Below are positions 34,971-64,000 of a stretch of DNA of 64,000 nucleotides, in pieces. A program made the translations under genes and the position numbers. Below the pieces are notes generated by a model. It was not told the DNA's origin, ran no database searches, and was given only the letters and a program-made list of their open reading frames with translations. Numbering within the stretch: position 1 is the stretch's first letter; every line of letters starts with the position of its first letter. The stretch is taken from the NCBI GenBank assembly GCA_950295325.1, contig OX485808.1, forward strand, positions 25,504,527 through 25,568,526. The letters are read 5' to 3'. This DNA comes from Polytrichum commune. Taxonomy: Eukaryota > Streptophyta > Polytrichopsida > Polytrichales > Polytrichaceae.

Positions 34971-35065
34971 TACCCAAACATTCTCCAAGCATAATTATAA
35001 GCACTATTACTAGTAGTAATAAGACTCCAAAAGACTCACCACTAATACAGACATATTTACAAGGC

Positions 35066-35215
35066 ACCACGGGCCTTGGCTTGGTGGTTAGGGCTCATGG
35101 CCCCCAATGAGGAGGTTGTGGGTTCTATTCCCCATGTCGGCGTGGTGCTCACCACCTTAGTCCACCCAACCATCACTTCCCCCAACCTCCATACAATATG
35201 ACAGATCAAGTCACA
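35066..35215 (+). mobile_element. tRNA-derived SINE
   Basis: GGGCCTTGGCTTGGTGGTTA (A-box-like, from 35071) and GTGGGTTCTATTCCC (B-box, about 35118-35132), 35 nt apart, as in tRNA-derived SINE heads. The body runs to about 35215. No poly(A) or clear target duplication was found. Confidence 0.7.
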
Positions 35216-38200: not shown

Positions 38201-40090
38201 ATGTTCAACAAATTTAAACTTGTTTTATAATGATGCCATCCTAAGTTGAATTATTTTAGTTGAGTGTAAGGATGCTAGAGATTGATCAACAATTGAGGTA
38301 GCAAGTTGAGGTAAGGGTGATGCACGTCGGAGCTGATGGGACTTCGATATCGAGATTGACGTTGGAGGATTTGTGATTTTAGAGCTAGAAGTTAGGACTT
38401 GGGAGCTTGGAATTGGGACTTTGCATGATGGGAGCTTGGATTTGAGACTTAGGAGAGAGTGAGGAGGAGGAGGATTGTTGAGTTGGGAGGGAGGACTTCA
38501 AAGGATTGCAATGACTTAGGAGGCTGAAGCTAGGAGGAGAGGAGGTTGAGTGATAATGTAGAAAACCATGTGCGAGAAAATGTATGTCGGTTGTTATTCA
38601 AGACACATAAATTTTACATTTTTTAAGATATACAATAGCGTCTTCTAACTACAAGTTTGGGAATTATGTATGATGTACAATGTGGTTTAAGTTGTGGTAT
38701 TTCTTTTTATTTAGATGTAAAGTAGCATAAATAAAATTTAGATTTTATTTATTTATAGGTTCAACATAAATCATCTGCCATTAGTGGCATTGAATGAGAA
38801 ACAAGCAAAATGTATGTGGATATATGAATGGATTTGTTGAAATGATCACATTTGGATGAAAATCACCATCATCTAATGATGGAAGGGTTGTCTGGCTTAT
38901 TTAGGGTTTATTTGGGGGGGATCAAGAACCATACGCATGGTATAAGGGTAATAAAAAGTATTAACAAAGTATCATGGTAATATCGAGCATCACACAAACA
39001 TGAAAAAGACAATCTTAGGGTATTGAAAGGGGTCGTTGAGCTCAATTTTTCATTTCTATCTTTAGGTTTTTGTTTTCTCCTCTAGTCGGCTGCGGCAATC
39101 TCTCTTGACTGAGCATTTGCTTGCTCTGCTTCATTTAGGAGTGCTCACTTACTTTGTTTGCTCGCTCCTATGCTTTGAAGGTTGAATGCTAATTTGTTAT
39201 TTGAACTTCATGATGTTTGTGCGAGAATTGTTTTGGTTGGGTTCAAGGTGTTGGAACTTTAAAGTCCATTGTATATTTTAATACTTTAAGGTTAATTACA
39301 TTGTAATGTTCGTTGTTGGTAATGTTGAAGTTCAATTCTTAAGTGTATATTTCAAGGTGTATATTAAAGTTGAAGGTGTAATGTCCTTTTTATTGATGAG
39401 GTTTATGTATGTTGGTGTTGATTTGTTATGTATGTTGGAGTTGTAGCTTATGTATGTTAAAGTTGCTTTATTGCTATATATGTTGTTCTTACGTTGGTTG
39501 GATGTTAAAGTTTATGATATGATGGTTGTATGTGTGTAATGTGCAGAGTAATATTTGTGCAATGTAATGTATGCATAGTGTATTATATGTGTAATGTATG
39601 TACAAATTATTCACACAATTTTTTACTACTTATAAATAAAATAGGATGATTATAATTATGTGACTCTAACATTGATATATTATGATAGGGTGTTAGAAAA
39701 TACCATCTAGTAGGGATTTAACTACTTACAGGGTGAAAACTATTCAATGAAGGAAGGTAAATACACCCCCATTAATTAGGGGGTTATTGCACGTGTATAT
39801 ATAAATCAAGTGTAGATGCATCCATGGTGGGTCGTTCCACTCCCCTATTGAAATCAATAGCGTACATAGGATATGAGTTTTTTTAAACCCATAATATACC
39901 CAATTTATGTTCACACCTTCCTCACAAATTGGTCAACTAACACGAATGCATATTGGTGAGTTGGCCTTTAGAAGAGGGGATCCCTCTTTCCATGACTTTA
40001 AGATTGTTCAGTTAACTTTGATATGTAATAGATTTTACAACTATTATTAAACTTACAAAAATTAAATTTCCTATAAAATAATATAAATAT
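35216..40090. other. Intergenic, gene-free
   Basis: The plus strand remains markedly A/C-rich up to about 36100, as in the R4 region, and may continue that old element. 38280-38560 is G-rich with GGAGGA-type runs. No gene, RNA or defined element was recognised. Confidence 0.4.
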
Positions 40091-43026: not shown

Positions 43027-46000
43027 ATGATGGAAAGCAAGGAGGATCGATTGCTGGGCGGCGTCATAGCCAACCACCTATTTCTGTCCCAATTCGAGTT
43101 ATTCCGAGCCTGCCTGCTTACCCTGTCTGTTCGCAGCCCAAGGTTAGCCCGCGACATTTACCAAACTGTGATTAAAAAGATATGGACACTCAAGGGCGTG
43201 GTATGGTCCGAGAGTGTGCCATCATCCGCCCACATGGCCTGGCTCTGCCTCCAAGAGCTTCATGCTATGGAGGAGAAGCTTGCAGATTCCGAATCCACCA
43301 AACCTGAGGGAGACGGAGATGGAGATGGCTCCGAGCAAGGCGAGCATCGGATTTACTGCCGCCCTGTTTATGATAGCATCGAGTTTCTGCTGCTCCTCGA
43401 GTTTCTGAATCGGTATGTGGTCGACCATGGCAACACCATCGCCAAAGACATCACAGCAGAAGAATGCACAGGTACAAGGATGCTTCTCCTTTCTCATGTT
43501 CTCATTTTGGATGTGGGTGTAAATGTAGGACACTCAATCTTTGAGCGATTCAGTCTTCATCCTCTGGAAAGTCCACTCTCATGTGGCCTGTAGGGCATTC
43601 AATCTTTTAGTAATTGAGAACTTGCTTCATCCTCCACACATTCAACTCTCATATAGCCTCTGAGAGATTCAATCTTTGAGTGATTGAGGACTGTCTTTAC
43701 CCTCCACACATTCCACTCTCATATGGCCTGTGGGACATTCAATCTTTAAGTAGTTGAGGACTGTTTTCATCCTCTGCAAATTCCACTCTTATATGGCCTC
43801 TATGATATTCAATCTTGTGAGTAAATTGAGGACTCTCTTCATCCTCTGGAAAGTCCACTCTCATATGGCCTGTAGGACATATAATCTTTGATTGATTGAG
43901 CACTGTCTTCATCCTCTGCAAATGCCATCCTGATATGGTCCGTATGGCATTCAATCTTTGAGTAGTTGAGGACTGTCTTCATACTCTGCAAGTTCCACTC
44001 TCAAATGGCCTGTAGAGCATTCAATCTCTGAATAATTGGGGACTGGCTTCTTCGCCTGCAAATTCCACTCTCATATGGCCTGTAGGACATTCAAGCTTTG
44101 AGGAATTGAGGAATGTCTTCACTATCCCCAAATTCCACACTTAATGGCCAGCTGGCACTGAGAAGCAATCATCAACATACACAACTCTGTTTCAGGATAT
44201 TTATGCACCTTGAATTCAATAGAATAGAACATTGCATAATATGAAGCTACTGAAGGTGAAGAAATAGTAATCTGGAATGAAGCTCGACCAGGTTCGGGGA
44301 GCATGCATGGAAGCAGTAAGGTTTGATGAGGGTCGAAGCAATACAAAGTTTTTAAGATGCCCGAGGTAATTATGTGGTTTATGCTTTACTTGCAGATAAT
44401 GAGATGAATTCTCCTACAGACATTATTTTGGTAATTTGTTAATGAATTTCACTCCCTATCAGCTCAAATACGAGCACCAGTATTGGAAAGTCATACAGAT
44501 AACATGACGGAAAGGTGTTGAGAAGATTATTCCTGGTGATTAGCCCATGAAGGCAAGGCTTATAGTAACTTTAGTAAGGGATTTGTGATCCTAGGATTTA
44601 TCATCCTACAATTGTTGTTGAATTCATGATGAGTCCCCTGGTCAATACTTTTATTTGGTTGGCATAAAAAAATCTAGACATGACTAATTCATACATTTCG
44701 CACTTTACATCTGTAACCTCCAATATTGTGCTCAATGTCTCATAATGTTCTTCTGTTCATCATTAATTCAGTTTTTGTACGGACCTATTTTTTTTATGGG
44801 TTGCTTGTATTTTGTGCACACTTTGTGGTACATTTTGGTCTTCAGAGACTCTGTATTGTATTAGGTGCTCACAATAACTTGTCTTGCATCACAAATTGTT
44901 CATCTACCTATAATAATGCTCTGAGTACATTCTCATCAGTTCTAAGAAGTAAGATCGTGGTTCAATTGAGAAACAAGTAGTGGCTCACATTCAGCTGAAG
45001 AATTCACTGGAGAAATTGAACCTCACTGATGCTGTAGACATGAGAAATGTTTTCTCAAGTCGGAATCAATTAGACTCTTTCTTTGACTCAATGGGACTTG
45101 TTGTTGGGAGTTGGTCCTTATGAGTTTCCATTGGTTGTTTTACTCTCAATATCAACAATTTCTTCCACTTGTGGTGCATGCTTGGAGGTAGTGTTTGAAT
45201 TTGAAGAGCAACCTATTTCGGACCATTGAGGGCCAAGCTCATTTTAGCACCTCTTGGCATGCCAAAACGAGTTTGACCCTCAATGAAATAGAATGTTCTT
45301 TGTTCAGACCTCCACAGTGCCTCCAAGCATGCACCAAAAACTCACCAAACATGGAAGGTGTTGTATGCAAAACAACCAACTCCAACCAAAAGTATGCTGA
45401 GTTAGATGATAATTCTGTTGTTGTTTTAATTTCGCGTGCACTTGTTTTAGCTCAGCAAGTGGTACTTTATGTTCAGGATGGATTTTCTGAAGGTCTGTAA
45501 CAAATTTCTTGCCATAGTTTTGCTGATAGTGTTATTTTCTATGTCATATTAGCACTATAGCCACATTTCCTGCATTGACCATCGTAAATGGGTTGTTGCA
45601 GTTTCCAAAAATGAGGATGGTGTACCATCGTCTGGGCATGCAGATGAAAGGGTGGGGCTAGAAGTTGTCAAGAAGATGACTGTGGCAGGACTAGAGCAGC
45701 TGTTTAGGTCTATTCAATCGGTTAGTGAACGTAATTCCGGAGGTGAAGATAAGGAGGAAGGTAGTAGAGAAGGGGAATTTGAGGGTCGAGAAAGTCCTCT
45801 GGAGCCTATTATTCCTTCACATTCAAAAGGCCAAAGGGAGGTGTTCTTCTCCGATATGGAAAAGAAATGGCTGCGCTCCTTGACACTAAGACAGCCGGAG
45901 CTTCTTGATGCTCTTTGTCAAAATATCACTCGTCAACAACAGTTTAGTTGGTTAAGTAACCAACCGGACCTGCATAATAGGCGTGAAGGGGAATCGGAAA

Positions 46001-49000
46001 GGGATTTGGATGCAGAAATATCCAGCAAGAGGGCTGAAGCTGATTTTGAAGATGAGACAGAGGCTGGAGAACCACCTGGCACTTCTGAACATTTTGAGGT
46101 TAGATTCCAGTTTTTATTTTGTTAGTTATACTCCCATGGGGTGAAGATAGCTATATCTGATTGCCGCCCTTTGCAACATGTAAATGTATTGACCACAAGG
46201 TTTTGTTTCCATTTGATTGTAATTCCTGGAGTCTGGTAGTGTTCCTTATTCTCTTTGCCTTCTTCCAGATGGGTTCAGATATTCAAAGAGAAGTACAAGA
46301 GGCGCATTTGAAACAAATTATGCAAGATGTTAAAGGAGGCCATTTGGCGAAGGCTATTGATCACCTAAAGTTTTTGCATGAGGATTTTGGCATCACAGAA
46401 AAAGAGTCTGGGTTAGTAGATTGCTCACCTTCTTAAGTCCTCCTCAGGTGACAGGTCCATGGCCTATTCAGCCCTTTTAAAGGCACTTTGCTAGAAACCT
46501 CATTTCCAATGTATAGAAATATGAAAAATCCTTATCCTTGTGGTGCAGAGGATTCTCTCCAGATTGTTTCATGTCTCAACTTTTGAGAGGTCTTTGCCAA
46601 ATTGTTTTCTGCGGTGTTGGAATATTTCATCAGTTTTTGATGCCATTTATTTGTCAATTCTGTCTCTTAGTGAAGCAATCCACTTGATTCTGAAAGAGGC
46701 CAAATCTATGGTGCGGGAGCAGCAGGAATCTGTTCTACATTCCATATACGAGTGCAGTGTTACTTCTGGAAGCATTCTTCTTCCTAAACTTGTTGAGGTA
46801 TGCCTCAAAAGCCTCATCCTTTTGTTATCAAGATACAAGTTGACAAGCGAGCACTTTGTAGTGTATGATTTGCTTTTTAGTGTGGATGCAATTTTAGATC
46901 CTTACAAATTGATCCAAGTTGGTGGAAGTCTGTATTTGCAATGGCAATTGTATTCATAGAGTGCTTCAGTTAGTCAAGGCATCATATGTTCTCATATGTT
47001 CTATAACAGAGTTATTCTTTAACTTGATGTGACTTTTCATAGGGAGTTGGCTGATCTGATTTTGCATTAGTTGCTTTCCATACAATATCAACACTTTCTT
47101 TCCACTTGTGGTGCATCCTCTGAGGGAGTGTTTGAGTTTGAATGAAGAGCACTCTATTTTGGCTCATTGAGGGTCAAACTCATCATAGTACCTCTTGGCA
47201 TGCCAAATTGAAATTGACCCTCAATGAACTGATGTAGAATGTTCTTTGTTCAAACCTTCACACTACCTCCAAGCATGCACCAAAAACTTACTGAACATGG
47301 ACAGTGTTGTATGCACTACAACCAACTCCTGACCAAAAGTAATGTTGAGTTAGAGGGTAACTCTAATTTGGTTATTTTGAAGTATTGAATTTTCCCAGAA
47401 GGGTTGCTAAATGCTTATGAATGGTGGAACAGTCTGCTCAAGATGATATGATTCGGGAGGAACTCGAACGCAGTAAAACATCATCACCACAAGAGCTTTA
47501 TCCTCCTCCATTTGAACGCCTCCATCAGCGGATGCAACTACTTCGAGGTGGTAGCCCTTCGGATGCTGGAAGCCTCCCAATGACGGAAACTTCAGCAATT
47601 CGTGCTTGTTTGAAAGAGTTGTACCAATATGCACGTGTTGATGGTGCTCACGTTTTGGAGCTTGTGGTGAAAGCTGCACTTGCGTCCGTCAAGGATCGTC
47701 AATTTCAGAAAGTATCAGATGTATGTGTGCACTGCATCTTCTTGAATTTGGATCCACATTGACAAATGCCATAGTTCTGAAAGCTGTAAAATGGAAAATA
47801 TACTCGATTATCTCAAATTGTTGCTGTAGCGTGAGTAGTACTTGTTTTGATCAGCAGGTTTCAGCAATTGACTTGGTGATGTGAAAACAGGTTGTTTCTC
47901 CATTTCCACGACTCCAACCATTAGTTGCTGTTATGGGTTGGGATCTCTTGGCTGGCCATACAAAATCTAGGCGTAAGTTGTTGGAGCTACTTTGGAACAG
48001 CAAGATTAAACCTGGGAACCTGTCTCATGGCAGAGCTACAGAGGAGGTAGAATTTCAAAATTGCTGTGTCTTACAGGGTTTTTACGCAGATTGAATTGCT
48101 ATGCTTAGTGTGGGGCACTTTGGATCACTGCTTTTTAAGTCAAGACAAAAGACTAAAAATAATGTTTAGATGAGTCAAGTTTGTCGTAGAGTTTTGAGTG
48201 GTTTGTTGATATCATGGTAACAGCTTGATAAAATCTGATTTACATCAACTCAGTAACTTGTGTAATTTGGACTGCGTGCGACGCTTGGACCTCAACAAGA
48301 TGATGTCAACAGGAGAATAGTTTTCTTTTCACTTCTCTATCCATTCTGAGATTCTATTGTGGTCTACTCCCTTTCTTTGAATACTCTGTGGAAAATTGAT
48401 GTGGAGTGCAGGAAAAGAACATGCATTCTGATATGGGTTTTTTATGTGCAATATTTCAGATTTCCTGTGTGGAGCAGCTTTGTGATCAGCTGTGTTATCG
48501 GTTGGAGTTGGCATATTTTGCTGCTTCTGCTAACTCGGGTATTAGCCAGTCAGCCACTACTCGAATTTTTGTCAAGGGAAACCGCATTAGGGGTGTGGAG
48601 AACATTGAGGCTCCTGCTGACCCTTTTGTGGCCAACCTTGTTCTTGAACGACTAACCATGCATTCTCCAATCCGAGTGAGTTTTTATTTTATTATTTTAT
48701 TATTATTGTTATTTTCTCTCCTTTCAAATCACATGAATCAATGTGAGCTTCGAAGTTTATTCTTTTATTGAGTCTCATTTTCTGCTTATAGGCCTCTTAC
48801 AGGGTACTGATTGAGGGTGATGCTCAAATTCTAGGTGCTATTTGATGTGGTGCCCGATATCAAGCTTGGTGAAGCCCTTGAACTCATTAAATTACAGCCT
48901 ACAGGCACATCTACCGAAGCTTATCGCCAAAGGTTTACCTGCTAACTTTCTAAACTCTACTGCACTCTGATTGTGCAAAAGCTGTTCTCTCCAGATGAGC

Positions 49001-52000
49001 TTTGTTCATTAGGACTCTCTTTTGACATCTTTTGGCCAAAGGCAAATGCCTCCCCTTTGTTCCACCAAAATTGGATGTTTTGGTACCACTTGAACACTCC
49101 TCATCTTTTTGAATTGTCTAAAGTGTGGCAAAACTCCCTACTCAACCGAGAGTTTTGAGAATTATACCACGATTTCTCATGATTTTTCACAAGTTCTAGT
49201 GTTATATTGAGAATGTGATACCTAATTTAGGGTATTGTCCTGCTTGTCAGGCCTGAAATTATTGTTGATTCTATGATAACAAAAATATGCTGTCACTGTA
49301 GGCACCTTGACTTGGAGCTTTTACACATGCACTATGGAATACAAGCTGCAGTTCTTGCTTTGGATGTCATGGAGACTAGTGTTGATAGTGACTCAAGCAA
49401 TGAAAAACAGCTACAGGCAGCACAATACCTACAGCAACTTCGTGAGCACTTGGAAGCGATCAGTACTCCAGTTCGTCGGGTAAATCAGTCGAAGTCTTCA
49501 TTATGCATGTGAGGTTGTTAGTGCCAGTGCTTGATTTGAAAAATATGACTACTTAACCTTTCAAGAGCTGGGGGTGTGTTTACATGGGATATGTGACAAT
49601 TTGTATGAACAAACAATAGGTATTGTAATAATTTTTGATGTGTTGTATTTAATCCATATTTATCACAACCTTTTTAAAAAGAGGAAGTGAAATTAAAGGC
49701 ATATGTGACAATGGTCATTAGAAATCGTGGTATGTATTGAGTCCAGGTCATTTATGCAAACTCATACATGCGAATATGTTTTATTTACTCCTTGACATAG
49801 GGTATTAAATTCAAAACCCAAAAGCATCAAAATTATAATTTTCAGACTTGGTGAGGCTCGTGGAATTTTTGTACATGGCTGTGTATTGAGCCACTTGGTC
49901 CTTCATATGCTCAAAAAGTATGATGTTTCAATGCAAAGGCTTGCTGTTGATGTGATTTGTCTTGGGATTGACCAAATGCACATCACAATGCATTGATTGA
50001 GGTTGTGGAATGCTGCTATATTGCAGGTGTGGATTATGAATATCATTATATCTCTTTTACATATGGATGACATCAATATCCAACCACTGAATAGCAAGGA
50101 TTCATCAGTGCCAGTAGAACCAAGTGTTACGGAACCTGCAGAAATGAGTAGTACAGGCTCCAAGAAGAAAGAGATGATGTCCCCAGTTGCATTTGTGCAA
50201 ACCATATTAACCATCCTTCAACAGTGCATGCCACCTCCTGGGTTGGAGTTGGAGCCACGAAGCTCATCAAGCAAAGGGGGCTTGGCTAGGAAAGGAAGCA
50301 CAAGGAGTGCCAGCTTTCCAGGGAAAGCTGCAAAAAAGGCCTGGTTAAAACAATTGGAATCTTTGCACAATTTTGTTGACGATTGGAATTGGAGACTCGC
50401 AGTGTTGCAGCGGCTGTCTCCGTCCACTCAGCGTCCTTGGCAGTGGCGAGAAGCGTTGGCAGTTCTGCGAGCAGCTCCTTCAACCATTCTCAACATGTGG
50501 GTTTTGTGACCAGAAATTGTTAGTCATAAATACTGCTTTCTTGTCGACAGCATAAATAAATAATTAGGACTGATTTTTAGTGTGTTTTGTCTTGATATCG
50601 ATATGGATACCAGCTTCTTCTGATGCCCACAGATTTCAAGGTTATTAGCACTCATCTCCTGTTGAAGAACTTAAGCTTATAAAATAGAATTATCTTAACT
50701 TGTCTTCTGGTTAGGAGTTGGTTTGTTTGCATAGAACACCTTCCATGGTTGGTAAGTATGCAGTGGATGCTTGGTAAGTATGTGGAGGATTGAATGAAGA
50801 ACATTCTTTTGTGGTTCATTGAGGGTTAAACTTTTTTTTTAAAAAAAAAAAAAAAAAAAAAAATCATTTCAAGAGATGCTAAAATGAGCTTGGCCCTCAA
50901 TGAATTATAATAGGTTGCTTTTCATTCAAATTCAATACTACCTCCGAGCATGCACCACAAGTCAAAGGTTAATTTTTGATAGTGGATGCAAAGCAACCAG
51001 TGGAAAATTATAGGGGACTAACTGCTGATGAAAAGTCCCATTGAGGTTAAGGAAAACTCTGATGTACCTAAACTTTTCTGTCATTTAGTGCCTTCTAGTG
51101 CTTTGTAAGTTTTTGAAGAACTTATATAGTCCTTGAACGTGTTCACTACAGGTGTGTCCAGAGAAACCAGTATGATCTTGGAGAAGAAGCAGTGAATCGG
51201 TTTAGGTTGTCCCCGGAGGAGGCGGCCTCTTTGCAACTTGCTCAGTGGGTTGACAATGCTGTTGCAAGAGCATCAGTATGTAAATCCTGTTTTTGTTTAC
51301 TCTTGGGCTTTCATGTGTGGTAAATGATGGTTAGGACTTGTTGAGTGCAATTGATTATGGGAATGAGGTGGTGAACTGTGGAATTATAGCTAAGTGTCCT
51401 GTAGGTGAATTGGTCCATTTAGTCTCTCTACCCTTGCCTTTCCTTGAAGTACCAAAGCTGTGAGACCCATGTCTCAAACTCACCTGTTCAGTAGGATTCA
51501 AGCAGTGCTGACGATGTCAATGCTTCCTCTTTCGTTGCTTTTGGGTTGATGCAAATGTGTAAACTTCTGTTGGACCTTCATTGGTGTGTTTTTTGGACTT
51601 TTAGGTGGATGATGCAATTTCTCGAGTTGCAGAGGAGTTGTCAGGCACAGATGATAACCTTGACTTCACTGCTCTTCAGGCCCCCTTGGCACCTCTTGCC
51701 ACTGTAAAATTCATTGCTCACTGTATTCTGTGTCCTTCTGTTCGTTTAATTTTTTCCATAGTGTGGTAGCAAGACGATTCCTGCTTCTGTTTATCTTCAT
51801 GTGGATGCCTCATTCCTCATTGAAAGATGGTACACTAAATAGTCCTATTAGTGTGGGCCACAGTGGTTCTCTACAACCCACATAAAATTTTCAACCACAG
51901 TAATTCTCCAGTTTAAAACTTGTCTGGCACACATTAATTTTTTTCAAGGAAATTGATGTGGGTGACGATTTTATTTTATGCTACATTTGTCTTTGAACTA

Positions 52001-55000
52001 ATTACTTAAGGTGTTTCTTGGAAGTCTCCAGGAAGATTTAGGGAAAGACCCAGTGTCTTGGGCCCACATTATTTCTACCCTGACTAGGAAATTAGTGTGG
52101 CCCACATTAATTATTCCCACATTTATTTTCCACCCACACTAATAGGACTATTTAGTGTAGCTTGTGACCAGAAAATTCTAGTATTTATTGGCTGTTGAAC
52201 TGAACAGCGTTCTGTTTTCTTTACCAGGTTCTGCTGTGTGTTGATGTTGCTGCCACTTCTGTAAGGTCTGTTGACATGGCAAGGCGCCTACTTGACCGGG
52301 TATGTAGTCTGCCCTTATGGCATATTGAGTTTTAACTACTATGTACGAAGATTTTTTGGGACTAAATCAGTAAAGTGATGAATAAGTCTAGTTATTATCT
52401 TTGGACATCCTGATCTTGTATAACTAGCGCTTGGTCAATACCAAGGAAAGAAGTTGATAATATGAAGCCAGAAATTGACCTTTATCTCATAACTGTTGTT
52501 TTTAAATAAACGAACTTTTTCTGCATAGGGAGGGTTTTCATAAAAAACGAAAGTGATGACAATAATGTGCTATTGACAAGTGATTTTGTCAATATATTTG
52601 GAAATCCTGATCTTGTACAACTATGCACTTGCTCAATACCAAGGAAAGAGCATGATAATAGAGTCAAAAATTGACCTAAGTTTTGTTCTGGAGAAACAAA
52701 CTTTTTATGTAGAATAGAAAGGGGTATTGTTGTATCGTATGAAAATGAAAGTGATGACAAGCATGTGGTATGAACGAGGGAATTTGTGGTGTCTCCAGGC
52801 GCGCGTCCTTCTATCTCAAATTTCCCAAACAGGTTCCAGGGGTCAAGGGCCAGAGCAACGACAGGAGGCATGCATGGTCTTGGTTGCAAAACGCACTGTT
52901 TTACGATTATATGAACTTCTGGAGCAGGTCTACACAGTTGGTTTTTTTAACCTGTGTGCTTCTGGATTGACCTGCTTGGTGACGACATGTGGAAACTGTT
53001 GAAAAGTCCATATCTTGCTGTATCTCATATGTCATGTAGCTAAATCTATTGACATATTGGGGATATTAACCCTTAAAGGACCAAAGGGCTGAATGTATGG
53101 TCTATATACACAATTTTCTATGAGCCTTACCTAGCAATTTGTCTTTCTAGAGTATTTATGGGTTTGGAACTTTATTTAGTGCATTATTTTATGTTAAGGA
53201 GAAAATAAAAACATATTCATATGTGACATTGGTGATCAAACTACAAAGTATTTGTTTGCATCTGAGGGCACCCAAGTTTTGTATTTGAACCTAAATTTCC
53301 AATTACATTAAGTTACTCAACTGAATTGACGAATGAGTAAATTTTAGATAGGGCCACTTTTGACACAATTAGCTAAATATGGAAGTTTTAACCTCAAATA
53401 CATGATCTTGTGCATGTCGAGGCCCAGATAGGACCTCATAGATGCTTAGTTATTAAGTGGAATTCATGACCTAAAATAAACGAGTAGAGAGAATGTTGTG
53501 CTTAGAAAGAGGTTGTATCTTATTGTTCTCCTTTCTGATTGCAGGACAAGGTTGGAGCCTTGCAGCTTTTATTGTCAGGTGCAGATATGGTTTCAATGTC
53601 AGGTACTGATGGTTCACGTCAAGTTCTTCGGCAGCGTGCTCTAGCCATTCTTCAGCAAACAATAGAAGATGCTTTTAGTGGCAAACGCCAGTTTCTAAGT
53701 GGTGAGCATGGCTACTTCAATCTTTCATTTGTACTTGTCATTCATATGCCACCTAAGGCTTCTTTGTAATTCCCAGAGATAGGCATTTCAATCTGGATTT
53801 GTGATTTTCTTCACATATTTTGACTTTTGATACTATTAGACTTTTGTATAATGTCCTGATGGTGCTTCTCCTGTAACAAGGATTCTAGGGACTTTGTCAA
53901 TTGAACAAAGTCATAACCCTCTTCATGATCATGCAGAACTTGATTGTTCTGTTGTTATTCGATTTCAACGTCTTTTTGTTGCCTTTCTACAAGGTGTTGA
54001 CAAATGCCACCACTTAAAATTGTTGGGTAAGGTGACCTTGGTGTATTCAATTAGACAGTTTCCTTATCAACTGATTTTTGAGTGCAGGAAAACTTCATAA
54101 CTTGGTCAAGGCATTAGCAGACGAGGAAGGAGAGGATTGGTCAATTGGGTCGTATGGAGAAAAAAAATCTCTGCTTGGACCTGAGCACAGCCTTGGCTTA
54201 GGGCTTGGATTCCGGGTTGCATCAAGGCAGAATCAAAGAAGTAGTATGCCTTCAAGTCCTGGTTCTGGATCAGTCGACTTTTCTGGGGAGGCTAATTTCC
54301 AAGTTACTCCCAAGGCATCAACAAAGCGGTTTCTTGGACCATTAAGTAATAAGCCTATGGCTTATCTTTCAGCTTTCATACTCTACATTGCGACTGTTGG
54401 TGACATTGTGGATGGTGTCGATACAACTCATGACTTCAATTTCTTTACTCTCATCTACGAGCGCCCCAATGATGTATGGCTGTCTTGATTAACTCAGCTT
54501 TATTCCTTTTGAGATTTATAAAGGGACAAATCTTTTGAAAAGAGTAATTGTAAGAGTCATTTACTTTTATCATGTGATACATGAGCATTGCAACTTACAG
54601 AGCATTTATGTCTAGATATAAATTGGCGACGGGGTTATTTGGAGATTTTTGAGGAGCACAACTACATGCCCTTAGAAGTGGACTTTCTGTCCTTGCATTT
54701 CACAATCTGCAGAAACGTAAAGAAGAATAAGCTAAAGTGATTGAAGTGGAATTGTTCTTTTCCAGCTGTTGACGAGACTTGTATTTGAGAGGGGAAGTGC
54801 GGATGCTGCCGGTAAAGTTGCAGAAATCATGGGCGCAGATTTAGTCCATCAGGTGCCGTGTTCCTTGAGACATTTGTGCAGATCTCCTACTAATTACTTA
54901 GTAGGAGATGTCATTGTTGCAGGTTATTTCTTATATATGTCTTTATAAAGTCTGTCACTATATCTACACTGTCGAATCGAGGTTAATTGTGATCAACAAT

Positions 55001-58000
55001 TAATTTGCACTAGCATCATCTTTAGAGAAACAATGTGTTTTGTCTCAAATGTGAAGTCTTGTCAATCTGGATTCACAGCTTTTCAAGTTCCAGTTTTAAT
55101 TGTTCTCTGAGAGGCCTTAGTTTTTTCTGTTTGTCATTTATTGTTGCAGGTCATTTCTGCGTGTGTTCCTCCAGTGTATCCTCCTCGTGGGGGCAAAGGA
55201 TGGGCATGTATACCGCAACTTCCGACGCGTGTTGTTCAACCGGGCAATCAAAGGGGGGATGTTCATGTTGTGCAAACAACAGCACATGATGAAGACGAGC
55301 CTCAACTTTACCCTCTGCAATTGGATGTTGTGAAACACCTTGCGACATTGTCACCTGTGCGCTCTATCCTTGCTTGCATATTTGGTCAAAGTCGTTTCAC
55401 GACACAAACCAAAGATGCAAATGTAGCAGATTCAAATGTGGATGCGGATCGCTCCTTTTTTGACTTTGCCTTGGAGCAGTCTGACAGGCAAGGACCTGCT
55501 CCACAAATACCTATGAAATAATATGTGGGCTCAATTCATTTGGTGCATACTATCTTATCATGCTTGTATGTTCTCATAGTATTCCAATGAGCTGGAGGCC
55601 ATTTTCATGTTGATATGATATGACTATTTTTTTACTGACATCCCCAATATCTTGTCCAATTTCTCATGGTTTTGTCTTTCACAGATACCTCACCTTGAAC
55701 CAATTTGTGGGTTCAAATATATTCATTTGATGCAGGCTATCTTACCATGTTTGTATATGTTCTTTAAAGATGAGTTGAAGGCCACTTTCATGTACACATT
55801 TCTTCAAATGACATTCCCAATACGTAGACTTTCAAATTTCTGAAGGTTTTGTCTTTTGCAGATATCCCACGTTAAACCGCTGGATTCAGCTGCAAGCCAA
55901 TCTGCAAAGTTTGACGTATTCATCAAACTCTTCCCTAAGTCTTAATCAAGACCTAAGAAAGGTAGAGGATTCAAAATCATCACTTAAACGGCCTCGTGCA
56001 CCTGACAAAGAGGATTCCGATTCATCATCCGAGGTTGATGAAAGAGATGAACTGCCTGGAACTTCTGTATCAGCAACATCTAGATGGGACACAGGATCTT
56101 TTGGACGAAAAGGCGAGGGTGAAGTTTCGTCAATCTCCAAGGAAGCGGAAACTTCACAACCAACTAGCTTGTATTCCCTAATGTTTGACTGGGAAAATGA
56201 GGCCCCATATGCAGAAGCAGTTCAAAGGTAAATCTTGGTGGAAATGACTACCTACCTGTCTGTAAGTAGGTTATTACCAGTCATTTTTGTTGGGCCTCAA
56301 AATCAAAATTGAGGAGCCAGTGATTGATTGAAGGCTATTGGAGGTCTAGTCTACTCACATTGTAACTTTCTCAATAGTAGAGAGTGTCAAAGAAGATCCT
56401 GTGATTCTGTGACAACATATGATTAAATTGAAGAACAAGTGCACAAGGAAGCTTAGCTTGTATACATCCAACATTTACATATGCTTAGCAGATGAACACG
56501 ATTTGTTTCAATAAGAAGTATTCTTGAGTCTGTAGAATTTCCTGTTTAAACAACTGTATCTTCCTTTTGGTGAAAACTGGCAATGAAATATTATACTCCA
56601 TACCACAAAGGTAGAAGTGAGAAGTGTAAGTGGACATCAATAGCTTATTTTTAAAGTCTCTCAATAATCCATGTTTTGATAAAGAGTTGGGCCTTATGTT
56701 TTGACAATTTTTATAATGTTCAAGGAGCATTCAAGTGGTGTTGGAACCTCCATTTATGGTGCATTGAAGTGGAGGTTTTTGACTTTTGGCCAAGAGATGG
56801 TTATTAAAAAATAGACCCCTTGTCAAACTTTCGAGAGCACCATTTTAGGTGTCTTCAAAGGTTGCCATGAAATTCTTTGGGGAGAAACTCCCTACCAAAA
56901 CATGAGTCATTGAGAGACTTCCAGGATACTCTATCGGCCACAAATGCTTTTCAATTACAACAAGACATCGTGTTTGCAGATTGAAAGTCTATCTTCTTCA
57001 ATGACAAGCATGACACCTGCTCATTGTGGTATTCAAGAGTTTAAGAGCAAATGGACGTCATGATATTCACAAAGTTATTGTTCTTGCAGGCTAATTGAGG
57101 AAGGGAAATTAGTGGATGCGTTGGCGCTTTCTGACAGATGGTTGCGCGATGGTGCGCCAGATCAGTTGCTACAATTATTAATTGAGAGAGGTGAAGAAAG
57201 TGGATCAATTTCAGGTAGCAGATGGCAGAGTCAAACTGGAAGTCATTCCTACAGCAGCAGTTGGCAGTATTGTATTCGTCTGCGAAACAAGACTCTGGCG
57301 GCTACCCTTGCCTTGAAGTAAGCCCTGAGAGAGGACCTTTTGTTAATAAATAACTTTGTAAAACACAAAGAGTGTAGATCTGGCCTTTTGGTTAGAGATA
57401 CTCTCAATGCTTATGAATGTATTGGGGTTTTTCTGTAACTCAACGGGACTTTTGGTTGGGAGTTGGTTGTTTTGCATACAACACCTTCCATATTTGGTAA
57501 GTTGCGGTGCATGCTTGGAGGTAGTGTGGAGGTTTGAAAGAAGAACATTCTATATTGGTTCATTGAGGGTTAAGCTCGTTTTGGCATGCCAAGAGGTGCT
57601 AAAATGAGTTCGGCTGTCAATGAACCGAATTAGGTTGCTCTTTACTGAATGTTAAATACTACCTTTGAGCATGCACCACCACAAGTGGTAAGAAATTACT
57701 GATTTTGTACGTAAATCGATCATTGGAAAATCATAGGGATCAAGTCCTCAGGAAATCCACCATTGAGTTGAAGGAGAACTTTATTGTATCTATGTTCACC
57801 TATTTTCTACACTAGCTGTTACAACTCTGCAGCTGTATGGTTCTGTTAAATGTTTGGATTATGCAGTTGAGATGCAGCTTTCCTCACATTTTGTCTTGGT
57901 TGTATTCCGACTGTCAATTTGTACGAGTTGAAATTTCACTAATACCAAAATGATTATTTTGTATTCTGAATATCAACCCCTGATAATATGGAAAGATCCA

Positions 58001-61000
58001 GGCAGTGAGGGTGGAATTAGAAGCTTAAGAACAAATGAACTGTATTTGGTAGAGCACTTCATAAAGGACAAACTACAGTTAGAGGTCACAAAGGATCAAC
58101 AAACAGCTTATTTTCTTTTCAAAATGCTCTTTAAGTAGACTCATTGGCCATTCACACTGTCCCAGGATGCTAGTCTTATTTGATTTCATGCAATTTGGGT
58201 GTTAGAGTTTATCTGAGTTGAATTTTTGTGATTTTTCTGCAGGTATTTGCAGCGGTGGGAGCTTGATGCTGCAATCGATGTCCTCACTATGTGCAGTTGT
58301 CACTTGTCTCCTGACGATCCACTTCATGCCGAGGTCTTCAATACTTCTTTTCTAATTATGTACAATTTTTTATGCTGTAAAGTGACTTTCTGGCATTAAT
58401 TACACCTCAACAAACACCAGTTGTGGCTCTGTGTGTCCTTGTGTCTTAAAAACAGATGGATTCCTCTGCTTCTGACTTAATAAACTGCAATGTTACTGAA
58501 TTCATGGCTGTAGGTAGTTCAAAAAAGAAATACTCTCCAGCAATATGGTCGCATTCAACGAGCAGACAACCGTTTTACCCAGTGGCAAGAGGTACTACAC
58601 ACAAAATTCCTAGCTTGCTACTGCAATCTCAATTGAGTTATCTTTTAATGTAATGGGACCTTTGGTCAGGTATTGGTCCCCTATGATTTCCATTGCTTGT
58701 TTTTGCATACAATACTAATAATCTCTTTTCACTTGTGATGGTGCATGCTTGGAGGCAGTCTTTGAATTTGAGTAAAGAGCAACCTATTTCAATTTACTGA
58801 GGGCCAAACTCATTTTAGCACCTCTTGGCATGCTAAATTGAGGTTTACTCACAATGAGCTGATATAGAATGTTCTTAGGTCAAACCTCGACACTGCCTAC
58901 AAAGCATGCACCTCAATCTTACCAAACTTGGAAGGTGTTGAATGCAAAACAACTAACACCCAATCTAAAAGACATGCTGAGTTAGAGAATATTTTAAAAT
59001 GTTAAAATTAGGTGATGACTCCTGTATGCTGTTATAAATTAAAATGATGGAGATCCATAGGTTTTACCTCAAATTCTGTAAATGGAATTTGGTGGTTAAA
59101 CTTGATTAACCCTGTTTCTACAGACCTAATATATTTTGGTGTAAACAACTATAAGTGGCAAGAGAATACATAACTTGGTGTATGTGTGTGCAGGTAGAAG
59201 CACTTTGTCAAACTGATCCTGAGGGACTGGCGCTTCGACTTTCGGATAAAGGGGCTGTTTCTGCTGCACTTGATGTGGCGGAATCTTTCAAACTATCGAA
59301 TAATTTACGACGAGAATTGCAAGGTCGCCAGCTCGTGAAATTGCTGACAACTGACCCCATAAGTGGTGGGGGACCTGCGGGTGGTTTACGTTTTCTCAAT
59401 TCCTTGCATCATCCGGAAGATGCATTGCCGGTGGCTATGGCAGCAATGGAGCTACTTCCGAATCTTCAGTCCAAACAGCTTTTGGTACAAACAACTTGGC
59501 TATAAAATGTTATCCTCTAACCCAGCATCACTTCTGGTTGGGAGTTGGTTGTTTTGCATACAACACCTTCCATGTTCAGTGGAGTGAAATTATTGAATTG
59601 TATGCAAAACAACCAATGGAATCATAGGGGATTAACTCCTGATGAAAAGTCCCATGGAGTTAAAGGATATGATTATTAGCATGTGAATTGATGAATGTAA
59701 CTCCAAACTCTCAATTGCAATCGAGCTGAATTGACATAAAAAATTAGGTGTGCTCAATTTAGAAAGCCTCAGCACAAGTGATTGTAGTGGCGTAGTTTTT
59801 TTCAAAATGAGGAAGTGCTTTAACTGGAAGAGTGAGCCTTATGTGAAATTCTGAGCATCATCAGACATTTTCTATAAGTTACCTACTAGCTGATGTTAAT
59901 GTTGTAAGAGCTGTGGTTGATGGAACTTATGCAAAATGTTCTCAACAATTCTCAATTGAGAGGTAGGATTTGGAATCCAGTTAGTATTAGGATTTGTCAC
60001 AAAAATAGTCTTTCTCTTGGCAAGTGAAAACATGTCTTTGCTGTGATTCACTTGGCCTTTTTTGAGGTCAAGCACGACTCAAGGTTTAGTGAACTTTATA
60101 AGGGCTTATAATTTTGGTATGGTTCTAGATTCTTTCTGGAATTCGTTCAATCAGAGTTATCTGCAAACCCCCTCTTTGAGACTCTCTTCTATGAAGAGCT
60201 CGTTTTTTGATTTGGGTGAAACTCTTGGATCCCCTCCAAAAACGTTGAGAGATCTTAAGGATCTAAATTAGGGTATGACCCATGGGACCTGCCATCCTAA
60301 ATCCTAGCTTGGCATATCCAAGGGCAATCCTAGTATAACAAATTAGAAAGCCAATTTGTTTATAGCCTGCCCCGTTCTCTCAGCATGTCAAGTTAAGCCT
60401 TAAGAAAAACTTCTGTTGCTTTATGCATAGGTGACCTTTCAGCCAACTCATCCAGAGTTTGATCTTGAGACTTTACAGGTAACTTTCTTAAATGAGATTT
60501 GAGTTTGATAAAGGACTGCAAATCATTTGTTTGTTTCTGTGGTGTGATATAGGTGCATTTTTTTCTGAAGCGACGAGTGGGGACCCTCACCGAAGAAGAG
60601 CATGCAAGGCTGGATCGTTTAGCTTTGGGTTTGCGCATGTTGGGATCCCTTCCACTGCCATGGCAGCAACGGTGTTCTGCGCTTCATGAGCACCCGCGTC
60701 TTATTCTTGAGACTTTGCTCATGGGGAAGCAATTGCGTGCTGCTTCTCAGGTACAAAAAATATATCAAGGTTGTAATTGGAGTGTTAGGGATAAAATATC
60801 TTTATCAGAGTTGTCTTTTAACTCAATGGGCCTTTTTGGCAGGAGTTGGTCCCTTATACAAAATTCCATTGGTTGTTTTGCATACACTATCAATAATTTC
60901 TTACCACTTGTGGTGCATTCTCTGAAATAATGTTTGAATTTGAATGAAGAGCAACTTTCTGCTGTTCATTGAGGGCCAGACTTATTAGAGCACCTCTTGG

Positions 61001-64000
61001 CATGCCTAACCGAGTTTGACCCTCAACAATCCAATGTGGAATGTTCTCTGTTCAAACGTCCACACTATTTCCAAGAATGCACCAAAAGCTTACAGAACAG
61101 GGAAGGTGTTGTATGCAAAGCAATCAACTCCTGACCAAAAGTCATAGTGAGTTAGAGCATAACTCTATTGACCTGATGTCATTTTTCAATGATTTGCACT
61201 TTAATTAAGTTAGCCCTTAAGTTGGCAGGGGTGTCTTTATTTGGGATACCTACATGACGAATTGTATGAACCCCCAACAAGCATTGAAATAATATTTTAT
61301 TTTGTCTATGATATCGAATCTATATTTAGCACACGCATAAAAAAGAAGTGAAAATGAATTTACATGTGACAATTGTAATTAGGTACATGTGGTATGTATT
61401 TTGAGTCTGAGTCATTTGTACAAGTTCAATCCTTCAAATAATTTAGTTCTACATATTTACATGCTCTGCTCAGAAGAATGCATATGGTAAGTGTGCTAAT
61501 TTTCAGGTAGGGCCACTTTTAACAATTTCAGTTTAAAATATAATGTAATCTTAAATCCCTCCAGAATGGGCCTCTCGGGCCTTTAAGGGTTATTCCAGGT
61601 TTCACCAACTTGGCTTGAGTACATCATTTCATACCCCTCTTTTTTGTATTGCACCCCACTTGGTTTTACTGAAGCTGTAAATTTGATTGCTTTGGCTCCT
61701 TCAGCTTCTCCATACATTTGAAAACCTGCAAGACGATGAGCTTGTGAAACTGTACGCCGCAAAGGCTCTAACTGTGAGCAGTAGTAGCCCTCCTCTCGAA
61801 CGTCGAAGCTCTACATCGACAATTCCTCCCACAAAACCCGTTACTCGAACAACATCAAGTGCACGCTCAAATTTCAACAGTGGACTGAACTCGCTGCAGA
61901 AACGAGCATTTTCGTGGACACAACGAGACTCAGGACACAAAGTTATAAATCAAGATACGAGCAGCCGAAAGCGAAAACTTGTGGGAAACTTGCCACCTTC
62001 TCAAAAAGCAGCATGGGAAGCCTTGGCTGGAGTACCAGAAGATCGGCCGCCCAATACTGGAATTGCTTCTCTCGAGGGCTATGAGCGCCCAGCTCCAATG
62101 GCAATGACTGAGGAATGGGTGTTGACAGGAGACCCTGTAAAAGATGAGGCAGTTCGATCTTCACATCGCTATGAAAGTGCACCGAGCAGCATCTTATTCA
62201 AGGTATGAATGAATGATTTGCACATTTTTTAATCTATTGAACATTTTTTATTTCACAAATGTTATTGTTCAACTTAATGGGACTTTTTATTGGGAGTTGG
62301 TGTTTGATGATTATCCGTTGGTTGTTTTGCACACAACCTTAATAATTCCTTTCTACTTGTGGTGCGTGCTTGGTGGTAGTGGTTGAATTTGAAGAAAGAG
62401 CAACTTAGTGTGGTTCATTTGGGGGCCAGACTCTTATTTTAATGCATTTCCATATTTTATGCACTTTGGTACTCTTGCTTTAACTTCATCAACAACTGTG
62501 GGGCTAAAGATATTTTTGTATTGCTTATGTAGGCTCTCCTTGAATTATGCTCTTCAAAGGAAGTGGCAGTTCAGGCGGCAGTGGAGCTTTGCATAGTCCA
62601 AATCAAGCGGTACCTATCTTCTGAGCAGCTTCCCACTGCTGCCTTCAATGAATCAGCAGAACGAGGGTTCCATGCAGCAGAAACTTTTGTGCAGGTACAA
62701 ATATTGGTTCTCAATTAAACTTATGGTATAAGAGCGATTTTCACCTTGGGGGGGGGGGGGGGGGGGGGCTGATTCTGTTTTTATGGGAAAAAGGAAAGAC
62801 GAAGAATTTCATTTTTGATCAGTCTTGCAGGACATTGGATTGAAGGACTGTGAGTGTGTCTTGTTGTAGCAGCCTTGCAGCCTAAGGAATGCTCCATACT
62901 AAGGAATACTCAAGGTTATTTACTTTGATTAACTGGTTCAATAAGGGTGGGTTTAAACTAGGGTCCTGGTCCAAGGAACTTGAAGTCCAAAACACAGCTT
63001 AATGGACCTTTTGACTCAAGATTGGACCCAAGCTTGAAGGTTGGTTTCTCAAACAATGAGGAGTATATTCTCAAATAGGGAGTGCCGAGATTTTGTGGGA
63101 AATTGGTGCCACATTAGCGCCACTTCAATTTTTCATACTTTGGACTCATCCTAATATAAACTTCTTGGATCCAAATTTTTGCTCTCAAACAATAGGAACA
63201 TTTGATGTTTGAGTTTCTTTAGTTTTTGACCCTAGTGTACATGTACCCTGAAATTGTAGCACAATTGATCTTAGTTTTATAAATGGAGGAAATTTGTTGA
63301 TTGTTCTGTTAATGAGATGCACAGGCACTGCAATATGCTAGAGACGAATTGCGTAAGCTTGTTGGGAAGTCAGAAAAACTTCCAAACAGCCCCAAAACTG
63401 GAGAAGTTGCGGCAACGACCTCAACAGCAACTTTGGAGACAACCACTGCTCCTCCAGATACAGATGCTTCGGATAAAAAGAAACTCGTCAACCTCTCCGA
63501 CACTCTTGAACAAGCGGAAATCTGGCTGAATCGGGTAGAACTTTTGCAGAGCCTGTTTGGGAATTACGTCCCCGCGTCCCTCGATGATTTAGTCACCGAT
63601 GATGCTGCCAAGCGGCTACGAGACCGTTTGATTGAAGAGGAGCGCTTCAATATGGCTATTCACACCTGCCATAAATGCAAGGTAACACACAACAATGGAC
63701 CACAACTTTTGTATTTGATTGTTCTCATTTTTTGACTTGTTTGCATATCAGTCAGTCATTTCTAAGCTGTGGGTTGTGGGTCACCAGATTGATCCAATTT
63801 TGGTGTGGGAGGCATGGGGTCATGCTCTTCTGCGCATTGAGCATTATGCTCAGGCACGGCAGAAGTTCAAGTAAGTGTTGTGCAGTTGCACCATATTCTT
63901 GGAGAAGTGTTTCAACAGGTCTATTTGATCCTGTATTACCCCTAAGCATCCAAGATGCCCCCTCATTCTTGAAGTGAACTTTTTAAATTGGTTGAATACC
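43027..64000 (+). CDS. ZFYVE26: ZFYVE26/spastizin (SPG15)-like protein, 5' 28 exons, runs off the window
   Basis: Very large alpha-solenoid protein, the plant homologue of ZFYVE26/spastizin (Arabidopsis At2g25730 type). In animals the protein works with spatacsin and AP-5 on late endosomes and lysosomes; the plant role is inferred. Twenty-eight exons keep one frame: 2,120 codons plus two bases by 63870, and the gene continues to the right. The ATG at 43027 (alternative 43030) is chosen because family proteins begin with a short acidic leader and then ANHLFLSQFELFRA. Diagnostic segments in order are FPRLQPLVAVMGWDLLAG (exon 6), IIISLLHMDDI (10), FILYIATVGDIVDG (16), ISACVPPVYPPRGGKGWACI (18), FDWENEAPYAEAVQR (19), LSDRWLRDGAPDQLLQLLIE (20), LPLPWQQRCSALHEHP (24) and a TPR-like WEAWGHALLRIEHYAQA (28). 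Exon 3-4 junctions are less certain because that part diverges. No lesion was seen. Introns are rich in MITEs. Confidence 0.93.
43520..44155. repeat. 70-bp minisatellite in ZFYVE26-like intron 1
   Basis: About nine units, period 66-72 bp, with starts near 43535, 43601, 43671, 43741, 43811, 43883, 43952, 44022 and 44092. Consensus landmarks are ATTCAATCTTTGAGTNATTG, AGGACTGTCTTCATCCTCTG, CAAATTCCACTCTCATATGG and CCTGTAGGAC. It starts about 50 bp after the exon 1 donor. Confidence 0.92.
45070..45415 (+). mobile_element. Hairpin MITE (ZIM family), copy 1, intron 1
   Basis: About 345 bp whose two halves are inverted copies. The outer ends resemble GACTCAATGGGACTTG...CCAACTCC. The inner part reads GGTGCATGCTTGGAGGTAGT and, inverted, TGCCTCCAAGCATGCACC. 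The centre is TTTTAGCACCTCTTGGCATG. ZIM is only a working label used here. Confidence 0.85.
47019..47363 (+). mobile_element. Hairpin MITE (ZIM family), copy 2, intron 4
   Basis: 345 bp with ends GAGTTATTCTTTAACTTGAT and, inverted, GTTGAGTTAGAGGGTAACTC. The centre AGTACCTCTTGGCATGCCAA has the same orientation as copy 1. Confidence 0.85.
49565..49790 (+). repeat. Intronic repeat R2, intron 9
   Basis: Aligns with 61225-61440: GGGGTGTNTTTA, GGGATA, ATTTGTATGAAC, AGAAGTGAAA/GGAAGTGAAA, ATGTGACAATNGT, GTGGTATGTATT, GAGTC and GTCATTT. Confidence 0.7.
50687..51059 (-). mobile_element. Hairpin MITE (ZIM family), copy 3, intron 10
   Basis: About 373 bp. The central part has been replaced or invaded by a T-run followed by a 20-plus A-run (about 50830-50863). 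Outer and inner arms match the family (TTAGGAGTTGGTTTGTTTGC, GGATGCTTGG, CCTCCGAGCATGCACCACAA). Orientation is inverted relative to copies 1 and 2. Confidence 0.8.
51831..52159. mobile_element. MITE with 27-bp perfect TIRs, intron 12
   Basis: The element begins TACACTAAATAGTCCTATTA and ends with the exact reverse complement of its first 27 bases. The interior holds further copies of TTAGTGTGGCCCACATTA in both orientations. The termini read CACTA...TAGTG flanked by TA on both sides, so either a TA-inserting family or a CACTA-like element is possible. Confidence 0.85.
52400..52765 (+). repeat. ~199-bp tandem duplication in intron 13
   Basis: Two direct units: ATCCTGATCTTGTA at 52406 and 52603, TCAATACCAAGGAAAGA at 52434 and 52633, GAAAGTGATGACAA at 52549 and 52748. 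The downstream unit ends about 35 bp before the exon 14 acceptor. Confidence 0.85.
55505..55880 (+). repeat. ~177-bp duplication of an intron 3' end (intron 18)
   Basis: The last ~175 bp of the intron together with the first 17 bp of exon 19 have a direct copy just upstream. TTTGTCTTTCACAG then ATACCTCACCTTGAACC (55671-55701) corresponds to TTTGTCTTTTGCAG then ATATCCCACGTTAAACC (55848-55878). This creates a second acceptor at 55684. Confidence 0.85.
57425..57780 (-). mobile_element. Hairpin MITE (ZIM family), copy 4, intron 20
   Basis: One of the better-preserved copies: TAACTCAACGGGACTTTTGG at one end, CACCATTGAGTTGAAGGAGA at the other, centre GGCATGCCAAGAGGTGCTAA. Inverted relative to copy 1. 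Confidence 0.85.
58635..58995 (+). mobile_element. Hairpin MITE (ZIM family), copy 5, intron 22
   Basis: About 360 bp, GAGTTATCTTTTAATGTAAT to AGACATGCTGAGTTAGAGAA. The centre is TTTTAGCACCTCTTGGCATG, as in copy 1. Confidence 0.85.
59508..59670. mobile_element. Hairpin MITE (ZIM family), copy 6, internally deleted, intron 23
   Basis: Only the outer ~80 bp of each arm remain (GTTGGGAGTTGGTTGTTTTG and TGCAAAACAACCAATGG). The interior is missing, giving a compact 163-bp hairpin. Confidence 0.8.
60808..61165 (+). mobile_element. Hairpin MITE (ZIM family), copy 7, intron 24
   Basis: 358 bp. The outer ends GAGTTGTCTTTTAACTCAAT and, inverted, GTGAGTTAGAGCATAACTC define the best estimate of the family termini (GAGTTRT...RYAACTC). 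The centre is AGAGCACCTCTTGGCATGCC. Confidence 0.87.
61225..61530 (+). repeat. Intronic repeat R2, intron 24
   Basis: Second copy of the intron 9 repeat. It ends with AGGTAGGGCCACTTTTAACA. A similar AGATAGGGCCACTTTTGACA lies at about 53348 in intron 14, suggesting a third, partial copy there. Confidence 0.65.
62261..62445 (+). mobile_element. Hairpin MITE (ZIM family), copy 8, truncated, intron 25
   Basis: Only the left half survives: GTTCAACTTAATGGGACTTT, CTTGTGGTGCGTGCTTGG, GAAAGAGCAACTTAG, GGGGGCCAGACTC. It ends about 90 bp before the exon 26 acceptor. Confidence 0.8.
62748..62768 (+). repeat. G21 homopolymer near the 5' end of intron 26
   Basis: Twenty-one consecutive G, 53 bp after the exon 26 donor. 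Sequencing or assembly length error is likely at such tracts. Confidence 0.9.
62945..63245 (+). repeat. Dispersed repeat R3 copy in intron 26
   Basis: Counterpart of 17893-18212: AGGGTGGGTTTAAACTAGGG, GACTCAAGATTGGACCCAAG, CTTGGATCCAAATTTTTGCT, TTTGACCCTAGTGTACAT. Confidence 0.75.

Follow-up and report, generated by a model that had tools for sequence, protein, structure and literature searches.

An old hairpin MITE family in the introns of a Polytrichum commune gene: survival in introns as a probable explanation for an intron-rich distribution

Introduction

A 64-kb stretch of the genome of the moss Polytrichum commune (64,000 nucleotides of contig OX485808.1, referred to here as the window) raises the question of why eight copies of one repeat should lie within a single gene. 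The first-pass annotation, which was made from the sequence alone, described the copies as one family of hairpin MITEs located exclusively in introns, and proposed an insertion preference for transcribed, open DNA or an influence on small RNAs or splicing as possible reasons. The family was therefore followed from the window to the whole assembly, and the surroundings of old and young copies were compared.

Element copies and host gene in the window

All eight copies were recovered by blastn and a profile search. Six of them were full length, one lacked its centre, and one lacked its right part. Copy 1 (45072–45416, plus strand) was 92.5% identical to the family consensus, copy 2 (47008–47364, plus strand) 87.4%, and copy 3 (50686–51060, minus strand), which carries an A/T run near its centre, 83.4% or 84.5%, depending on the alignment settings. 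Copy 4 (57424–57782, minus strand), with AAT at each flank, and copy 5 (58634–58996, plus strand) showed approximately 86% identity, copy 7 (60807–61166, plus strand) 86.0%; all three were full length. The compact internal deletion mentioned in the annotation corresponds to copy 6 (59506–59674, minus strand), which retained both ends, whereas copy 8 (62258 to approximately 62445, plus strand; right border approximate) comprised the left half only. Both orientations occur as described, with five copies on the plus and three on the minus strand. A ninth copy was not detected in the 64-kb window with the family profile at an E-value of 1e-5, and the restriction to the gene thus holds for the window. 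Matches to the two landmark sequences given in the annotation (up to three mismatches) numbered 7 and 12 in the window compared to 0.33 and 0.40 expected from shuffled sequences, counts that include, in part, the two arms of one copy. The exact 16-base landmark was present in only three of the eight copies.

The host gene (43025–64000, plus strand) was called as a chain of many exons and introns (intron length approximately 40 to 1,100 bp), which spans all eight copies and continues past the end of the window; its start is uncertain. With the elements masked, the gene finder placed all eight copies in introns, in agreement with the earlier assignment, but the intron numbers differed from those originally given. 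The gene finder was written for this analysis, with splice weights set by hand, and was trained on one gene, namely on exons of the host gene picked by eye. Because of this training, the intron placement of the eight copies represents a consistency check only, and other loci were used for the real intron test. The name "ZFYVE26-like" could not be confirmed, since neither ten exon frames of the host gene searched against Pfam nor one searched against PDB yielded a significant match. Upstream of the first element copy, an array of approximately 70-bp repeats was found at 43484–44238. A strong GC skew of opposite signs was observed further upstream (−0.41 at 34001–36000, +0.28 at 38001–40000).

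Structure, target-site duplication, and classification

The family consensus has a length of 358 bp, begins with AGAGTTATCC, and finishes with GGATAACTCT; the first 11 bases of its ends are identical when inverted. It is predicted to fold end to end (−207 kcal/mol as RNA). Compared to shuffled sequences, the predicted RNA folds of copies 1, 4, and 6 reached z-scores of −6.5, −8.6, and −4.9, respectively, while the one element-free intron of the same gene that was folded gave −1.4.

The target-site duplication comprises 3 bp with the sequence AWT (AAT or ATT). In the old family, the flanking bases L−3 and R+3, which represent the variable middle base of the AWT duplication, agree in 40 out of 54 copies (22.9 expected, z 5.1). 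In 20 out of 24 young-type copies, which are described below, an identical AAT or ATT adjoins both ends, and a match of four bases was found in none of the 24. The insertion site of the young copy L121, joined with a single AWT, aligns to seven unfilled relatives; six of these alignments are gap-free within 5 bases of the AWT (L033 is one base short), and three of the seven are gap-free over the whole printed stretch. The three extra bases expected under a TA duplication were present in none of the seven relatives at the L121 junction. An eighth junction alignment (L146 against L038) was interrupted by a gap of 6 bases immediately to the right of the ATT and was of no help. A TA duplication is thus supported neither by the flank correlation nor by the young copies or the empty sites, and longer duplications were rejected as well, as four bases match in 0/24 young-type copies and no register of 8–10 bp stands out. 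An additional agreement between the flanking bases L−6 and R+5 in 29 out of 54 old copies (16.9 expected, z 4.0) fits no duplication register. The flanks of L121 themselves belong to an old dispersed repeat with 68%–77% similarity to L017, L027, L033, L070, L079, L126, and L132.

All eight elements belong to an old, high-copy family of non-autonomous hairpin MITEs. General features of MITEs, namely small size, absence of coding sequence, terminal inverted repeats, a target-site duplication, and a high, dispersed copy number, were all found. Introners, repeated elements that make up introns and supply their splice sites, resemble the family in their occurrence in many introns and several times per gene. 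However, an introner constitutes the whole intron, whereas the copies described here lie inside larger called introns with flanks of their own, as in the intron at 50497–51151 (655 bp), which holds a copy of 375 bp; an introner origin was therefore rejected. Mutator elements produce duplications of approximately 9 bp. Neither this length nor the 8 bp stated for hAT elements in a passage of PMC10741241 is compatible with the absence of four matching bases in the young-type copies. The same source, where it defines CACTA elements, names the ends CACTA/CACTG and a 3-bp duplication; CACTA was rejected, as the family ends in AGAGTTATCC. Stowaway-like MITEs (Tc1/mariner) share the ability to form hairpins, and a TA happens to be present at both ends of the family elements, but their duplication is TA and not the 3-bp AWT derived from flank correlation, young copies, and empty sites; parsing the sites with TA would leave the three extra bases that were seen in 0/7 relatives. 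Tourist-like MITEs (PIF/Harbinger) resemble the family in being small, non-coding, and of high copy number, with terminal inverted repeats and a 3-bp duplication consisting of A and T only. Their duplication is given as TAA/TTA (TWA) in passages of PMC10741241 and PMC12595863, so that the length of 3 bp fits the family with its AWT and its AGAGTTATCC ends, but the sequence does not. The AWT duplication hence fits no plant MITE group as defined in the relevant parts of PMC12595863 and PMC10741241. The length of 358 bp lies within the range of 50–800 bp given for MITEs in a passage of PMC12550479. Angiosperm microRNA precursors derived from MITEs (e.g., rice miR812w, named in a passage of PMC10004981) are similar in being MITE hairpins, the pairing of which weakens with age. 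A word search of the open-licence literature retrieved no paper on the family.

Genome-wide distribution and age of the family

The exact landmark occurs 523 times in the searched assembly of 408 Mb, and its reversed control does not occur at all. Scored family matches were located on all seven large contigs, which together amount to 406 Mb. Because the exact landmark is present in only 3/8 window copies and in only one of 13 neighbouring copies that had been found without using it, the family size is estimated from the sequence to be of the order of 3,000 copies. The estimate agrees with the rough first-look counts of 3,330 and 3,808 candidates. The interpretation as one hairpin MITE family was thus borne out by the consensus and the genome-wide copies, and the location inside a single gene applies within the window but not to the genome, in which the family is dispersed.

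The six full-length window copies showed a mean identity of 73.4% among themselves compared to 75.2% to copies elsewhere. Since they are no more alike among themselves than to outside copies, they were inserted independently, and a local segmental duplication, which the first-pass annotation had named among the findings that would speak against its reading, is ruled out. The 77 distinct full-length copies were on average 87.6% identical to the consensus, and the closest pair shared only 85.9%. On the basis of these identities, the family is regarded as the product of an old, star-like burst, and the sample of 77 contains no recent member.

The old copies cluster. In 10 out of 40 element loci, 13 further copies were found, compared to three copies in 3 out of 40 control loci; 17 extra rows had been obtained for the element loci, four of which (L010, L022, L024, and L035) were taken, on visual inspection, as fragments of the central copies. 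Among the landmark matches listed, 8 out of 98 intervals were shorter than 10 kb (1.0 expected). Four element copies, of which one is truncated by the end of the locus, are crowded into 2.8 kb at L030, next to dynein heavy chain domains. A dynein heavy chain gene at this locus implies flagellate cells in the host and, together with the seven large contigs, suggests a plant with swimming sperm.

Intron enrichment of old copies

For the old copies, 40 loci were obtained by taking alternate sites among the first 80 landmark matches listed, together with 1.4 kb of flanking sequence at either end. As the matches listed (100 of 523 sites) follow contig order, these loci are confined to contig C1 and the beginning of C2. 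As controls, 40 points at a distance of 150 kb from element loci were used, the centres of which were masked alike. A locus was considered intronic if its centre fell into an intron that was bounded on either side by same-strand exon calls. This applied to 23 out of 40 old copies and to 8 out of 40 controls (one-sided Fisher p = 0.0006); the eight include L070, a control with an element copy at its own centre. Seventeen of the 40 old copies were not called intronic. The comparison of introns with other locations that the annotation had suggested therefore reveals an enrichment for the old subfamily, and the association with introns is upheld in the sampled old copies. Counts of coding segments and strand agreement, which were determined before the gene finder was applied, did not distinguish the element loci from the controls.

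Pfam searches provided support that does not depend on the gene finder. With the 100 best-scoring reading frames per set, 37 families were found near elements and 14 near controls at an E-value of 0.01; at 1e-5, 24 families in the element set compared to eight such rows in the controls. Fifteen same-strand frame pairs were chosen by eye, and contiguous or neighbouring domains were detected on both sides of the element in six of these loci (L006, L007, L024, L027, L030, and L038). In some cases, the exons flanking an element continue a single profile (Aminotran_3, positions 9–74 and 72–159; ZZ, 2–22 and 23–38; Methyltransf_29, 128–201 and 193–291), and at L007, L030, and L038, neighbouring domains flank the elements, namely those of Lon, a histidine kinase, and a dynein heavy chain. 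The Pfam scan of the frame pairs gave nothing decisive at the other nine loci. With respect to the gene, 16 elements of the sample had the same and seven the opposite orientation (14:4 in a cruder first estimate; 5:3 in the window), which is not conclusive.

Young relatives and the search for a transposase partner

An exact 20-base element end was found at 434 sites, with none for the reversed control. Among the matches listed (100 of 434), 19 facing pairs had an end-to-end span of 268–341 bp, with 16 measuring 318 or 337–341 bp. Eighteen pairs are near-perfect palindromes with a self-identity of 0.93–0.99, and the nineteenth, L134, is old-type (0.78). A 338-bp query matched at least 40 places, the query included, with 96%–100% identity on all seven large contigs, and the eight best places not yet fetched were added to the young set. 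L134, the sole intronic call (1/27 before dropping), was dropped as old-type; L137 and L138 were dropped as the same insertion as L136. The latter three loci (C2 near 23.17, 23.23, and 23.31 Mb) have identical 12-base flanks, one of them inverted, and probably represent a local triplication of one insertion, as judged from these flanks. The remaining young-type loci (L120–L133, L135, L136, and L139–L146) are mostly 318 or 337–341 bp long, with lengths of 329, 282, and 268 bp also occurring. For 22 of the 24 copies, a sibling with an identity of at least 95% was found; L128 and L135, which are shorter, reach 90%. The ends and the AWT duplication are the same as in the old family.

For the comparison with old copies, flanks of 800 bp were used in all sets, and only the central block was masked, leaving neighbouring copies unmasked. 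None of the 24 distinct young-type copies lay between called exons, compared to 21 out of 40 old copies (p = 4e-6) and 7 out of 40 controls (p = 0.039; both two-sided). In two of the 24 (L127 and L135), the intron state ran off the locus, with no exons on both sides. Among 85 longer reading frames near young copies, Pfam detected six families, two of which are retrotransposon domains; as these frames were chosen by length, the count is not directly comparable with those of the old and control sets. In these samples, the distributions of the old copies and of their young relatives are thus opposite, despite identical ends and target-site duplication.

PIF/Harbinger systems combine a DDE_Tnp_4 transposase with a linked Myb-like protein. 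Harbinger-type transposase domains are abundant in the genome: 150 of 990 candidates were scored, and most of these were free of stops inside the match. On C1 and C2, the scored domain nearest to an exact-end site is 52.8 kb away (100 of 434 sites, 150 of 990 domains). Among the matches listed, no Harbinger transposase adjoined element ends, and no autonomous partner with the same ends was recognized when these domains were compared with the exact-end sites.

Probable survival in introns and alternative explanations

The intron-rich pattern is probably the result of survival in introns after an old burst and not of insertion targeting, a reading to which we assign a probability of roughly 0.6. 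It is not proven, because the old and young copies are different subfamilies. A transposase supplied in trans presumably mobilized the elements during the old burst, and copies would have landed in the host gene independently of each other. Copies outside genes may then have been lost or eroded faster than the intronic copies, which would have been protected, so that a long, intron-rich gene would come to hold a cluster of surviving copies. Such a cluster would need no function as an explanation. Old intronic copies are closer to the consensus (88.3% compared to 86.1%, p = 0.029) and longer (315 compared to 288 bp, p = 0.038) than the other old copies; both tests are post hoc and uncorrected, and one piece of L038 shorter than 120 bp was left out. 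Although small, these differences favour survival over targeting. The frequency of substitutions (C>T plus G>A per C/G) in old copies inside and outside introns differed slightly (0.087 and 0.107, respectively). The distribution may serve as a test case, in that an intron-rich transposon distribution that is read as targeting may be survivorship.

It is unlikely, but the strongest of the alternatives, that the old 358-bp subfamily targeted transcribed, open gene bodies, whereby introns of long genes gathered several copies, and that a different complex with a preference of its own mobilized the young copies. The enrichment in introns (23/40 compared to 8/40) together with the clustering would be expected in this case, and plant MITEs insert preferentially into gene-rich regions according to a passage of a 2025 review (PMC12595863). 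According to a passage of PMC12550479, a study of 207 plant genomes, the MITEs of three angiosperm families prefer the flanking regions of genes to introns. The preference for transcribed, open DNA proposed in the first-pass annotation found no support, because young-type relatives with the same ends and AWT duplication are located between exons in none of 24 cases, which is even fewer than in the controls. Moreover, targeting alone does not predict the slightly better preservation of the intronic old copies.

Survival after the burst has also to be weighed against purging. The near-perfect young hairpins of 338 and 318 bp might be harmful in pre-mRNA and be removed from introns, with the imperfect 358-bp elements being tolerated, which we consider improbable. 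It is a live rival because the young copies are also the better hairpins: the self-identity of 0.93–0.99 in 18 young loci (16 distinct) compares to 0.85 for the old consensus. The mean self-palindrome identity of old copies is 0.76 in introns and 0.79 elsewhere (with alignment settings that differ from those used for the young copies), and highly complementary MITE transcripts are named as siRNA substrates in a section of the review PMC10004981. However, when old copies aligned over at least 300 bases were compared (18 intronic, 10 other), the identity of the arms showed no difference between the two locations (p = 0.50).

A retention of the intronic hairpins for a host function, whether as a source of small RNA, in splicing, or in the formation of circular RNA by intron pairing, would be in line with the strong predicted folds (−6.5, −8.6, and −4.9 compared to −1.4 for the element-free intron), with two oppositely oriented copies, separated by called exons, that share 79% complementarity over 201 nt, and with the enrichment of miRNA-producing MITE copies in introns and pseudogenes reported in a passage of the review PMC12595863, but is most improbable given that the window copies (84.5%–92.5% to the consensus with one alignment setting for the full-length copies; family mean 87.6%) show no sign of constraint, the elements are found in both orientations (window 5:3, sample 16:7), palindromic MITEs fold alike wherever they are located, and Rfam gave no match at the gathering score in the region 42500–64000 of the window.

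Mirrored substitutions between the arms

In 18 young copies of 338 bp, 13 mirrored pairs of substitutions between the two arms were identified, which derive from nine distinct events. A sliding-mirror control gave a mean of 0.28 and a maximum of 5 pairs, and 3.3 pairs were expected from per-site change rates. Distinct changes confined to one arm at symmetric sites numbered 38. Three mirrored non-CpG events are private to one copy each (L143, L125, and L121), two have an added carrier with the change in one arm, and one is common to several copies; the other three are at CpG sites, where repeated mutation is possible.

The simplest reading of these alignments is that arm-to-arm copying gave rise to the mirrored changes. 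It might proceed via folding and template switching, either at the resident site or in the course of transposition. The mirrored changes would likewise be compatible with an origin from several symmetric masters. If confirmed on more copies, mirrored arms would provide sequence evidence for arm-to-arm copying in transposon palindromes. A possible, albeit doubtful, extension is that self-correcting palindromes keep the young copies near-perfect and that perfect hairpins fail in introns, while drifted ones become inert and accumulate there. Arm copying would in that case act as a clock that separates active from dead copies. Four further mirrored events were found in four copies of 318 bp.
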